Origin: Tupaia tana
Taxonomy: Eukaryota; Chordata; Mammalia; Scandentia; Tupaiidae
DNA length: 64,000 nt
Assembly: GCA_026018925.1 (NCBI GenBank)
Contig: JAKSZU010000002.1
Span: forward strand, 87,758,475 to 87,822,474
Reading direction: 5' to 3'
This document shows positions 12,800 to 51,459 of the stretch, piece by piece. Numbering within the stretch: the stretch's first letter is position 1; each line of letters opens with the position of its first letter. The position numbers were made by a program, and so were the translations under genes. Under the pieces are notes generated by a model. The model was given only the letters and a program-made list of their open reading frames with translations. It ran no database searches and was not told where the DNA came from.

Positions 12800-13010
12800 G
12801 TGAGGGGATTGGTATTTTAGAGAGGAGCTCACTCAAGATAATCCTCCTGCCTCAGCCTCCCTGGGATCTGGGACTACAGGCAAGTGACACCACTCCCAGC
12901 TTTATAAAGTGGGTGGAAATTGATCCCATGTGGCCTCAGCCTGCCAAGCAGCAGCTTTCAGTGCACACTATCATGACTGGGCCTACAGCTTTTCTTTATA
13001 AACCAAAGGG
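12800..13010 (-). mobile_element. Chimeric tRNA/7SL-like SINE, copy 1
   Basis: On the minus strand, gcctgtagtcccagatccc and gggaggctgaggcaggagga (12835-12890) match the 7SL RNA/Alu left arm. Upstream lies a tRNA-like part with gggatcaatttcc resembling box B. The order, tRNA-like then 7SL-like, is the same as in the copy at 13330. Confidence 0.65.
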
Positions 13011-29374: not shown

Positions 29375-29664
29375 GGGACCAGCAGTTAGTGTAATGGCTA
29401 TGTCGCTGGACTCCCACGTAGTCGACCGCGGTTCGAGTCCCGGACCCGGCGGCTTAAACTCACGCCGGGCGCGTGTGCGTGCGTGCCCAAGATCCCGAGA
29501 GGAGAATGGAGGAGAAGGGATTGCGGTGTGGCCATCCCCCCTGGGGGGTGATTTCCTGCTTTCTATCTCTCTGTCTCTCTCTGTCTGTCTGGCGAGCGTA
29601 CACGCCCTATAGCAAAAACCTCTCCAAAAAAAGAAAAAAAAAAAAAAGAGAGAGAAAAAAAAAA
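29375..29664 (+). mobile_element. Young SINE (CYN-like), near-consensus copy
   Basis: Carries GTCGACCGCGGTTCGAGTCC and CTCACGCCGGGCGCGTGTGC with CpGs intact, so it is one of the youngest copies here. Target duplication AAAAGAGGATGCTTGG lies on both sides (near 29361-29376 and 29664-29679). Confidence 0.95.
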
Positions 29665-30074: not shown

Positions 30075-30447
30075 AGAAGAACCAAATGAAAATTTTAAAA
30101 GTAAAAGATACAACAACTGAAATTTTTAAAAAAGAAGATATAACCATGAAAATTATCCAGTTCAAATAAGAAATAAGAGCAAGAAAAATGGGGTGGGAAA
30201 ATTAAAAAAAGAAAGAAAACAAACAAAAAAACCAGAGCCTTAGGAACCTGTGTTATTATAACAAAGATCTAAAACTCATGCAATCTGAGTCATGAAAGGA
30301 GAAGAAAACAATGGTAGAGCTGAAGAAATACTCAAAATAATACCTGAAACTCTTCAATTTTAGTGAGCTATAAACAAACAGATTCTCTAATTTTAGCTAT
30401 CAACTCATCCAATTCTGATCTCTCCCATGCCCTTCTGTCACTATCTC

Positions 30448-30457
30448 AGAAGCTATT
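30448..30457 (+). repeat. Target-site duplication, left copy, of the composite retroelement
   Basis: AGAAGCTATT, repeated at 33138-33147 directly after the poly(A). Confidence 0.9.
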
Positions 30458-30459
30458 GT

Positions 30460-30760
30460 CAATGGCGCCTGAGATCTAGACATTCTGGGAGAAAGGAAGA
30501 TGTCCCACTCCTAACTGGGCCTCCAGCATACAAAACCCACATGAACAGCCCTTCTTCAAGAGAAAGCCTGCTCAATGGCGCCTGAGATCTAGACATTCTG
30601 GGAGAAAGGAAGATGTCCCACTCCTAACTGGGCCTCCAGCATACAAAACCCACATGCCCTTCTTCAAGAGAAAGCCTGCTCAATGGCGCCTGAGATCTAG
30701 ACATTCTGGGAGAAAGGAAGATGTCCCACTCCTAACTGGGCCTCCAGCATACAAAACCCA
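30460..30760 (+). promoter_or_regulatory. Three tandem 5' units (about 113, 108 and 80 bp), promoter-like monomers
   Basis: Units start caatggcgcctgagatctag at 30460, 30573 and 30681 and are almost identical. Unit 1 has 5 extra bases near its end and unit 3 diverges after aaaacccacgtgcac. Tandem 5' monomers at the front of a retroelement recall the promoter monomers of mouse L1; promoter activity here is inferred, not shown. Confidence 0.75.
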
Positions 30761-30825
30761 CGTGCACACTTCCTAACCCTCATATTAAACTTCAAAAGTT
30801 TGGGAAGAAACCAACCATCCACCAG

Positions 30826-31626
30826 ATGACTAGAAATCGCTGCAGGACCACAAGAAATATGGAGAAGCAGGAAAATGCCCCTCTTCCAATTGAAACGGAT
30901 AGCTCCTCTTCATCCACACACAGTTCAAGGGAATTCATGGAAATGTCTGATAAACAATTCAGATCATTCATAATGGCAAAGCTAACAGAGATCGAAGAGA
31001 AGAGAGACAAGGAACTGCTGAAGGGGAAGGAGAAAGGAGTTGAAGAGTTCTAGGAGGTGAGGAAATTCATGCAAGATCTAAAAGAGGAGTTTCACACTTT
31101 ACAAAAGAATCAAATGGAGCTGTTAGAGATGAAGGCTATAATACAAGAAGTCAAAATCTCCCTTGAAAGTATTAAAAGCAGACTAGATCATTCAGAAAAT
31201 GGAATCTCTAATGTAGAAGAGAAAATGACTGGCCTAGAAAGGTCCACCATAAAGACTGAGAAAATGGCCCAAAACTTTGAGAATAATATGCAAGAAGTAC
31301 TAGATACAATTAAACGTCCAGGGGCGGCAGGCGAGGGCTCCGCCCCGCGTGCCGGCGCGTGGGGGTGGGGAGGCGGGCGCGGGGGCTCCAATCCACGTGC
31401 TGGGGTGTGGGGTCAGGGCGCGGGGGCTCCGCTCCACGTGCCCTGTCTGGAGGTCCGGCCCGACGGGCTCTACCCCACGTGCCGTGGCCGGGGCTCTGTC
31501 CTGTGTGCCATGGCTGGGGTCTGCCCCGCGTGCCGTGGCCGGGGTCTGCCCCGCGTGCCTTGGCCGGGGTCTGTCCCGCGTGCCGTGGCCGGGGCTCTGC
31601 CCCGTGTGCCGTGGCCGGGGCTCTGA
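30826..31626 (+). pseudogene. L1 ORF1 N-terminal half, running in frame into the VNTR
   Basis: MTRNRCRTTRNMEKQENAPL opens it, followed by a Ser-rich stretch and MSDKQFRSFIMAKLTEIEEK. A TAG at 31051-31053 interrupts it; the homologous L1 at 20610 has CAA there, so CAG to TAG is likely. It resumes EVRKFMQDLKEEFHTLQKNQ with heptad-like coiled-coil text to VLDTIKRP, where the RRM domain of ORF1 would begin. From 31314 the frame continues as Ala/Gly/Pro/Arg-rich VNTR translation to 31626. The coiled-coil (trimerisation) half is kept while both nucleic-acid-binding domains are absent. Confidence 0.85.
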
Positions 31627-32752
31627 CCCCGCGTGCCTTGGCCGGGGTCGGTCCCGCGTGCCGTGGCCGGGGCTCTGACCCCGTGTGCCATGGCCGGGGT
31701 CTGCCCCGCGTGCCTTGGCCGGGGTCTGCCCCGTGTGCCGTGGCCGGGGCTCTGCTCCGCGTGCCGTGGCCGGGGCTCTGACCCCGCGTGCCTTGGCCGG
31801 GGTCTGTCCCGCGTGCCGTGGCCGGGGCTCTGACCCCGCGTGCCATGGCCGGGGTCTGCCCCGCGTGCCTTGGCCGGGGTCTGCCCCGTGTGCCGTGGCC
31901 GGGGCTCTGTCCTCGCGTGCCGTGGCCGGGGTCTGCCCCCGCGTGCCGTGGCCGGGTTCTGCCCCGCGTGCCGTGGCCGGGACTCTGCCCTGCGTGCCGT
32001 GGCCGGGGCCCTGTCCCGCGTGCCGTGGCCGGGGTCTGCACCCGTGTGCCGTGGCTGTGGTCCTGTCCCCGCATGCTGTGGCCGGGGTCTACCCCGCGTG
32101 CCGTGGCCGGGGTCTGCCCCCGCGTGCCGTGGCCAGGTTCTGCCCCTGCGTGCCGTGGCCGGGGCCCTGTCCCACGTGCCGTGGCCGGGGTTCTGCCCCG
32201 CATGCCGTGGCCGTGGTCCTGTCCCCGCGTGCCGTGGCCGGGGTCTGCCCCGTGTGCCATGGCCGGGGTCTGCCCTCTCGTGCCGTGGCCGGGGTTCTGC
32301 CCCGCGTGCCGTGGCCGGGGTTCTTCCCTGCGTGCCGTGGCCGGGGCCTGCCCCTGTGTGCCGTGGCCGGGGCCTGCCCCCGCGTGCCGTGGCCGTGGTC
32401 CTGTCCCCGCGTGCTGTGGCCGGGGTCTGCCCCGTGTGCCGTGGCCGGGGTCTGCCCCCTCGTGCCGTGGCCGGGTTCTGCCCCACGTGCCGTGGCCGGG
32501 GCTCTGCCCCGCGTGCCGTGGCCGGGCTCTGCCGCGCGTGCCGTGGCCCGGCTCTGCCCCGCGTGCCGTGGCCGGGGGTCTGCCCCCGTGTGCCGTGGCC
32601 GGGGTCTTCCCCCGCGTGCCGTGGCCGGGGCTCTGCCCCCGCGTGCCGTGGCCGGGGCTCTGCCCCGCGTGCCGTGGCCTGGCTCTGCCCCGCGTGCCAT
32701 GGCCGGGGCTCTGCCCCCGCGGGCCGTGGCCGGGATCTGCCCCGCGTGCCGC
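31314..32752 (+). repeat. GC-rich VNTR, about 50 units of 25-27 bp, CpG-dense
   Basis: Units read CCGTGGCCGGGGTCTGCCCC plus GCGTG, with 25-, 26- and 27-bp variants (GGTCTG, GGCTCTG, GACCCC). The first about 150 bp are less regular. CCGTGG and CCTTGG starts alternate in 31540-31890, a higher-order pattern. Stops are rare, so several frames on both strands stay open for 350-500 codons; these are repeat artefacts. The region is a CpG island-like block in otherwise AT-rich intron. Confidence 0.95.
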
Positions 32753-33115
32753 AACCGCTGATGGCTGTCTCTGCTTTCCTGAGCCGCGTTCCTGAAACTG
32801 TGTTCCATGGAGATTCACTTACATTTGCGGGGCTGCACGAGACCCACCCTTGGTCCAGCCCTGAGTGCAGTCTACGTTTCCTATTGTTGGGAACTTTATG
32901 ATCTGATAATTGGAAAAAAAAAATCATGTTTATCATAAAAAATAATTAGAATAATAATAATAATGATTGGGGGAAACATAGGAAAGATATTGAATGTTGA
33001 AGTGGGGAGATTAATGTCTCTGTACTGACTGACATGCATGGCATTCCCTTTTGAAAAAGCAATGTAATACACTGTAAAGTTATATGTAATTCAATGTAAT
33101 AAAAAAATAGATAAT
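32753..33115 (+). other. 3' module of the composite element
   Basis: 32753-32905 is unrecognised single-copy text. 32940-33115 (ttaatgtctctgtactgact, atgcatggcattccc) resembles the L1 3' UTR near 23800-23840 (taatgtctttgacttgacta, cactgcattc). It ends aatgtaataaaaaaataga, with AATAAA just before the A-tail. Confidence 0.6.
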
Positions 33116-33137
33116 AAAAAAAAAAAAAAAAAAAAAA

Positions 33138-33147
33138 AGAAGCTATT
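33138..33147 (+). repeat. Target-site duplication, right copy, of the composite retroelement
   Basis: AGAAGCTATT following the poly(A) at 33116-33137. Confidence 0.9.
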
Positions 33148-33324
33148 AGTGCAGAAAGTGCACAAACTTGGTAGAGTCAATATGAACTTTCTGGCATTTC
33201 AATATTCTGTGCTAATGGCAAAGACAAAAGAAAACAAAACCTAGGATGTTCTTCAACCAGCTGCCTTTTTGAGAAGGCGGATTCTTTTCCAGTAGAGCAC
33301 TTTGATAACCTTACCAAAAAATTT

Positions 33325-37531: not shown

Positions 37532-37978
37532 TTTCTTTTTTTTTTCCTTAGAGGTTTTTGCTATAGGGCACAAGCGCTTGCCAGACAGACAGAGACAGAG
37601 AGAGAGAGACAGAAAGCAAGAAATCACCCCCCAAGGGGGATGGCCACGCTGCAATCCCTTCTCCTCCGTTCTCCTCTCGGGATCTTGGGCACGCACGCAC
37701 ACGCACCAGGCGTGAGGTTTTTTTTTTTTTTTTTTTTTTCCGCTATAGGGCGCGTGCACTCGCCAGACAGACAGAAAGAGACATGGAGACAGAAAGCGAG
37801 AAATCACCCCCCAGGGGGGATAGTCACACCACAATCCCTTCTCCTCCATTCTCCTCTCGGGATCTTGGGCACGCACGCACACGCACCCGGCGTGAGTTTT
37901 AAGCCACCGGGTCCGGGACGCGAACTGCGGTCGACTACATGGGAGTCCAGCGACATAGCCATTACGCTAACTGCTGGT
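37532..37978 (-). mobile_element. Dimeric young SINE: full unit plus headless second unit
   Basis: On the minus strand a complete unit (37735-37978) is followed by its A-tail and then a second unit beginning cctcacgcctggtgcgtgtg, which lacks the tRNA head (37547-37716). One target duplication, CCCCATTTTATCTATTTTT, bounds the whole block (37513-37531 and 37979-37997), so it inserted as one molecule. Confidence 0.88.
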
Positions 37979-50503: not shown

Positions 50504-50768
50504 TGAGACCAGCAGTTGGTGTAATGGGTATGTCGCTGGACTCCCATGTAGCTGACCGTGGTTCAAGTCCCGGACCCGGTGGCTTAAACTCACACCAGGC
50601 ACGGGTGCGTGAGTGCCCAAGATCCCGAGAGGAGAATGGAGGAGAAGGGATTGCAGTGTGGCCATCCCCCCGGGGGGTGATTTTTCACTTTCTGTCTCTC
50701 TGTCTCTCTCTGTCTTTCTGGCGAGCGCACATGCCATATAGCAAAAGAAAAAAAAAAAAAAAAAAAAC
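50504..50768 (+). mobile_element. Young SINE (CYN-like), with an empty site at 52440-52520
   Basis: gagaccagcagttggtgtaa head to tail gccatatagcaaaag. The target text taaaataattttg/aaaataat...aattttg flanks it, and the duplicate copy lacks the insertion. Confidence 0.92.
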
Positions 50769-50830
50769 CTCTAAAATAATCATAATAATTTTGGGGTTTT
50801 TTTTCTCATAATTACAAAAATGAAATAAAT

Positions 50831-51097
50831 GGGACCAGCAGTTAGCATAATGGCTATGTCGCGGGACTCCCACGTAGTCAACCAAGGTTCGAGTCCCGGA
50901 CCTGGTGGCTTAAACTCACACCAGGCGTATGTGCGTGCATGCCCAAGATCCTGAGAGGAGAATGGAGGAGAAGGGATTGCAGCGTGGCCATCCCCCCTGA
51001 GGGGTGATTTCTCGCTTTCTGTCTCTCTGTCTCTCTCTGTCTGGTAAGCACACACGCCCTATAGCAAAAATCTCTCAAAAAAAAAAAAAAAAAGAAA
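50831..51097 (+). mobile_element. Young SINE (CYN-like), with an empty site at 52545
   Basis: Target text gaaataaat (50822-50830) and gaaaataaat (51098-51107) flanks it; the duplicate copy has a single gaaaataaat. Confidence 0.93.
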
Positions 51098-51459
51098 GAA
51101 AATAAATAACAGAGGAGCCTTTTTCTCATTAAAAAAACAAGGTCAAAATATTAGTTCCTCTAGAAAGCCTTCCTCAACCCCTCTCTCTTCCCTGAATTCC
51201 CACTGGGATGAACTTCCTCCATTACCCTATATACAAATTTTCAGAATTCTGTGATAGTCCTACTGATTAAAAGCCTTTTCTCCTCACCTAGAAAGTTCCT
51301 TTCTTAAAGCCAACAGCTGTGAATTTCTCATAGTTGTATCCCTATCACCTATCATGATTCTAGTGTATAACTGAGCTTCAAATTATTTGTTAAATGAGTT
51401 GAATAAATACAATATTGTTTCTGATTTCTTAGAGTTTTTATTTTTTGCTGTTGTTTTTG

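Follow-up and report, generated by a model that had tools for sequence, protein, structure and literature searches.

The window, the whole stretch of 64,000 nucleotides that was analysed, was found to carry one copy of what looks like a new, independently assembled family of VNTR composite retrotransposons, a separate invention of the SVA/LAVA type. With a probability of about 0.92, this element is a non-autonomous composite retrotransposon made of a half-L1 front, a GC-rich VNTR, a segment of about 180 nt designated part A and the end of an L1 3' UTR, and copied by L1. The composite is a young, high-copy mobile element family.

Direct reading of the sequence showed that the window copy, at 30458-33137, is a single insertion with a 10-bp target-site duplication and an A-rich tail (Table 1). 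The first-pass annotation, which had proposed one insertion ended by poly(A) between two copies of AGAAGCTATT, was right to the base, and the four unlike modules that it had distinguished (monomers, ORF1 piece, GC-rich VNTR and 3' module) were all present. The tandem monomers presumably serve as the promoter. In another copy, L006, four monomers are followed by a CT-rich spacer, a partial monomer and the ORF1 leader; the 5' region of the window copy is a shortened form, without the approximately 460 bp that L006 has from the last monomer to the ORF1 leader. An AATAAA signal was located at 33098-33103, inside part B. An Rfam search over 30400-33200 gave no match up to E 1.

Table 1. Features of the composite element in the window (positions are those of the window).
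Feature	Position	Strand	Evidence
Target-site duplication, 5' copy, AGAAGCTATT	30448-30457		Sequence read
Tandem 5' UTR/promoter-type monomers of the half-L1 lineage, 108-113 bp x2.8	30459-30765	+	TRF (108-bp unit x2.8, 96% matches); likeness to L076-L078
Remainder of 5' UTR leader, up to ORF1 start	30766-30825	+	Comparison with L006
Half-L1 ORF1, first ~165 codons, ATG at 30826, end approximately at RRM domain start	30826-31320	+	Identity to L076-L078
Founder stop TAG, codon 76	31051-31053	+	Copy comparison; CAG/CAA in half-L1 copies
VNTR lead, GC-rich, 41-bp imperfect repeat	31321-31464	+	TRF; genomic matches
GC-rich VNTR, 26-bp unit x49.8	31465-32751	+	TRF, 84% matches
3' module part A, ~180 nt, directly 3' of the VNTR	32752-32932	+	No match in L070, L074, L075
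3' module part B, end of L1 3' UTR	32933-33105	+	Identity to L075, L074
A-rich tail	33106-33137	+	Sequence read
Target-site duplication, 3' copy, AGAAGCTATT	33138-33147		Sequence read, just past the A-rich tail

The genome, 2.95 Gb in 1198 contigs, was searched for further copies. A 32-nt pattern spanning the ORF1/VNTR junction, with up to 3 mismatches allowed, gave 584 matches, 313 on one strand and 271 on the other and distributed over many contigs, and the reversed control gave 0. When a 131-nt junction probe was used, all 40 scored matches (of 992 candidates) covered the full 131 nt with 98-100% identity. The core of the 3' module (part A) was matched at 1547 places (reversed control, 0), and every one of the 40 scored matches of the 3' module probe (of 1902 candidates) was 99-100% identical. 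Thirty of these 40 loci, the window locus among them, were fetched; 29 of them, including the window's own, have VNTR units upstream of the 3' module, and the remaining one (L047) starts in the last VNTR unit. None of the 30 was a continuous L1. The earlier proposal of a dispersed family with a common ORF1/VNTR junction and a common 3' module was thus borne out, and a single rearranged L1 is ruled out by the copy number and the common junction. The core of the VNTR lead was matched at 540 places (control, 0). Since this count does not exceed that of the junction, nothing pointed to another frequent kind of 5' end on the same VNTR, by what is a weak test. In PVA and FVA it is the 3' ends that are exchanged, but an exchange could affect either side of the VNTR.

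Over the ORF1 part of the 32 best-scoring copies, the median pairwise difference was 0.8%, or 0.6% when CpG changes were left out; because the copies compared are the best-scoring ones, the value of 0.8% is a lower bound on the divergence. The mean pairwise difference over the same part was 4.0%, a value inflated by indel-shifted copies that were out of register. The fetched copies were likewise mainly the best-scoring ones, so the youth and uniformity of the family are overstated by them. A less biased hint was obtained from one contig, C111, on which 28 exact matches to a 42-nt 3' pattern were found; scaled to the genome, this corresponds to approximately 912 exact matches of the 1547.

The origin of the front was examined by comparison with L1-related elements of the same genome. 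The ORF1 piece was 91.7-93.3% identical to the half-L1 copies L076-L078, and the alignable parts of the 5' monomers matched the 5' regions of these copies at 77-91% identity. Identity of the ORF1 piece to the half-L1 represented by L069 and L070 was 85%, and that to the full-length L1s L074 and L075 was 74% over 268 nt and 68% over 410 nt. The likeness of L076-L078 to L1 ends at the start of ORF2, and their open ORF1 comprises 331 codons in L077, 320 in L078 and 256 in L076. L069 and L070, with a mutual identity of 96.8% across 2.2 kb, carry 5' repeats and an ORF1 frame of 333 codons (1674-2672 in L069); their 3' end is non-coding, and a frame of ORF2 size is lacking. With these features the two correspond to half-L1, or HAL1, in the sense of PMC5753468. 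L069, L070 and L076-L078, all without an ORF2-sized frame, represent a young half-L1 (HAL1-like) population in this genome. A search with PF02994 gave 150 scored matches (of 43929 candidates), many of which have open frames of 340 codons. L1 promoter units and half of ORF1 had been annotated at first; the donor of these parts is a HAL1-like lineage, not an autonomous L1.

A pattern in which ORF1 runs on past the breakpoint gave 1565 genomic matches (control, 0). The ORF1/VNTR join lies approximately at the start of the ORF1 RRM domain; Transposase_22 starts at residue 164 in both L069 and L077. At the join, CGTCCA is common to half-L1 and the composite, so that template switching at a short match would be a plausible, if unproven, origin of the join.

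In correction of the first-pass annotation, the ORF1 piece carries a family stop codon, TAG, at codon 76. Of 32 distinct copies, 31 have it at the fixed position; in the remaining one, L007, a 1-nt deletion shifts the register and the TAG motif is there as well, as it is in both further copies that were fetched as possible exceptions. In the four half-L1 copies checked, codon 76 is CAG (L076, L077 and L069) or CAA (L078). Since TAG was present in every copy checked and CAG or CAA in half-L1, it may be concluded that the stop is a founder feature, owing to which no complete ORF1p is made. The frame before codon 76 was open in 31 of the 32 copies, with L034 stopping earlier, after 14 codons. Half-L1 elements with the founder stop and without the VNTR were also sought. 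The 43-mer pattern used, with up to 2 mismatches, matched 3337 places and was non-specific, half-L1 probably being included. On contig C111, 14 of its 16 exact matches adjoin composite marks (for one, at 62649091, the only such mark is a 3' one at a distance of 3.7 kb); the remaining two proved to be composites once fetched.

The two parts of the 3' module were of different character. Part B and the L075 3' UTR shared 93.6% identity along 173 nt, and the last 93 nt of part B were 90.3% identical to L074; in the alignment, L075 lacks AATAAA at the matching place. Part A, tested as 32753-32912, had no match in the full-length L1s L074 and L075 or in the half-L1 L070. It did match within L069, where it belongs to a separate, 5'-truncated insertion of the composite's 3' end. 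Of the L1-like 3' end in the first-pass annotation, only the last 170 nt or so can be recognised as L1 sequence. From the comparisons with L076-L078 and L075, the front is half-L1 and the tail is L1, and no source was found for the VNTR and part A between them.

These observations bear on a simpler explanation, namely that an L1 or half-L1 with a VNTR native to its own 3' UTR was internally deleted and nothing composite was ever assembled. Although both ends are L1-related and lie in the same orientation, this explanation is very improbable, given that part A had no match in L070 or in L074 and L075, the two L1s compared in full, with its match in L069 being a separate insertion, that no fetched 3' locus was a continuous L1 and each had at least part of a VNTR unit upstream, and that the 5' and 3' parts best match different donor lineages. 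A VNTR native to an L1 3' UTR was itself rejected as a candidate on the lack of a match to part A in L074 or L075.

Full-length L1s with long open frames are present in the genome. L074 has frames of 319 and 1285 codons and L075 has frames of 322 and 1320 codons (ORF1 and ORF2), and dozens among 150 scored RT matches sit in frames of at least 1285 codons. L1s with open frames are the likely mobilisers of the composite. The 5' monomers of these two L1s differ, with a unit of 129 bp x14.7 (1-1894) in L074 and one of 158 bp x2.4 (1502-1874) in L075.

The VNTR region of the window copy (31323-32752) has 80% GC and a CpG observed/expected ratio of 0.80; for comparison, two 4-kb stretches nearby had ratios of 0.16 and 0.38. 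A comparison of VNTR length among loci, which had been suggested at the outset, showed that it varies from about 0.6 to 3.5 kb (approximately 620-3537 bp, as calculated from coordinates) among the 15 copies, out of 25, whose ends could be paired; the remaining 10 lacked an exact 3' match up to 6 kb away. Agreement at each of the first six VNTR unit positions was 0.08-0.37 among 34 copies, against a background of 0.018. Further into the VNTR the unit order mostly dissolves, with position 13 still reaching 0.08.

Integration marks were studied at 35 loci with a 3' end, the 30 fetched loci and five more, 21 of which hold the whole insertion by the boundary rule of the script. A target duplication of at least 8 bp was detected in 13 of these 21 copies, against 8.3% of 420 pairs of swapped flanks; the first-pass annotation had named a private duplication at each of many loci as part of the proof of a family. 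Several of the 13 duplications (L043, L064 and L065) consist largely of A and are weak. In the other eight copies, the automatic test found no duplication of at least 8 bp. One of them, L035, showed a 15-bp duplication under a looser search, which yields chance matches at other loci; the flank of L001 contains N, and no duplication was found for L040, L042, L047, L049, L061 and L012. For the 13 copies and L035, the nick site on the priming strand was TTTT/AA in 7 of 14 and TT/A in 11 of 14, as raw counts of the motif. L034, L043 and L058 deviate from this motif, as does the window's own site, TTCT/G. Many copies lack their 5' part, with the truncation falling within the VNTR. At L056, L059 and L065, the tail is separated from the target duplication by a short additional sequence and another A-run, which suggests 3' transduction.

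Some copies lie close together, for example at 544-548 kb of contig C228 and at 213-216 kb of C389, as would be expected if the family had spread by segmental duplication or satellite-like recombination and not by retrotransposition. Such a mode of spread is extremely unlikely in view of the many contigs and both strands on which copies occur, and of the individual flanks, A-tails, truncations and target duplications, by which the 21 tested copies point to retrotransposition. In L020 (contig C389), moreover, a second composite at 1080-1640, truncated near the end of ORF1, begins directly after the A-tail of the first copy, like a fresh insertion. Judged from coordinates, the C228 cluster resembles this double arrangement.

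A route of origin for the composite retrotransposon, which encodes no complete protein, may be proposed as follows. In a founding event that would have occurred once, as the common junction and stop suggest, a half-L1 front (the monomers and ORF1 to codon ~165, with the nonsense codon 76) would have been joined to the VNTR, part A and the L1 3' UTR end. Pol II would probably transcribe the element from its monomers, and the RNA would probably be polyadenylated at the AATAAA close to its end. It would then be copied through target-primed reverse transcription, presumably by L1 proteins; the target-primed route is supported by the target duplications, A-tails, 5' truncation and nick sites. Changes in VNTR length could have arisen by slippage or recombination. 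An extension of this scheme, which we consider unlikely, would make the composite a two-step parasite that takes its promoter and RNA front, and perhaps ORF1p in trans, from half-L1 and its ORF2p from L1, with a convergent VNTR that makes such RNAs good L1 substrates. In the boldest form of this idea, the 75-codon N-terminal frame of ORF1 would yield a peptide interfering with ORF1p assembly.

According to PMC4432496, VNTR composites are confined to hominoid primates. An unrelated one, built from a mammal's own L1 and half-L1 parts, means that the design can arise more than once, and comparison of independent inventions offers a way to study the contribution of the VNTR to L1 mobilisation. Through the composite, sequence that is rich in GC and CpG and varies in length is also spread across the genome. 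The first-pass annotation knew of no element with this order of modules, and in the open-licence papers searched, with Repbase and Dfam outside the search, no HAL1-VNTR-L1 element was found in print.

Among known systems, HAL1 resembles the front of the composite, as is evident from the identity of the ORF1 part to HAL1-like copies and the related 5' monomers. HAL1 elements have an intact ORF1 and no ORF2, whereas in the composite ORF1 is cut near the RRM boundary and interrupted at codon 76, and a VNTR and an L1 3' end follow. Chimeric LINE-1 insertions are similar in that L1 is fused with other sequence (Law and Burns 2026, PMC13174262); however, that catalogue concerns LINE-1 loci of the human lineage, and the excerpt consulted mentions no comparable element.

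As in other VNTR composites, a single mobile unit has dissimilar 5' and 3' domains with a GC-rich VNTR in the centre, the VNTR is variable in length with ordered units at its 5' end, and there are poly(A), target duplications and L1-type insertion sites. No CT-hexamer array is present, in that TRF found no 6-bp array inside the element, and the CT-rich spacer of L006 lies within the 5' region, not at the 5' end. An Alu query sequence matched the window only at 12841-12901, outside the element. The match is an isolated 61-bp Alu/7SL-like fragment, 80% identical to the Alu query. An abundant SINE of another type than Alu occurs at 29377-29636 and elsewhere in the window (41 BLAST matches, 11.8% of the window), with tandem SINE forms at 37560-37900 and 50507-51105. 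Since ARAGORN found no tRNA gene in the window, the tRNA-likeness of this SINE was judged by eye only.

The composite resembles SVA in its modular make-up, a VNTR variable in length and poly(A). It differs in lacking an Alu match, in its 26-bp units and in a 3' end that is L1 3' UTR; the SINE-R of SVA is described as HERV-K-derived in excerpts of PMC4432496 and PMC5753468. The likeness to LAVA extends to the central GC-rich VNTR, the conserved order of 5' units (up to 5 conserved VNTR units at each end of LAVA, according to an excerpt of PMC4432496), an L1 fragment in the 3' part, poly(A) and target duplications. In the composite, however, the 5' domain consists of half-L1 monomers and ORF1, whereas that of LAVA is CT hexamer/Alu-like; the 3' sequence is different, as is the 26-bp unit, and the host is probably no hominoid, in view of its common SINE of another type and of the numerous differences between its L1 ORF1p and PDB 2ykp (LINE-1 ORF1P), which we take to be the human protein. 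LAVA is L1-dependent in published assays. A real relationship to primate SVA/LAVA by descent or transfer, to which the common plan of a 5' domain, a GC-rich VNTR, an L1-related 3' end (as in LAVA) and poly(A) might point, can be practically dismissed, for the composite has neither an Alu match nor a hexamer array, its units are of 26 bp against 36-50 bp for SVA/LAVA in an excerpt of PMC7353768, and its modules of known source come from the L1 and half-L1 lineages of its own genome. These features support the view, put forward in the first-pass annotation, that the composite is an independently built equivalent of SVA and LAVA.
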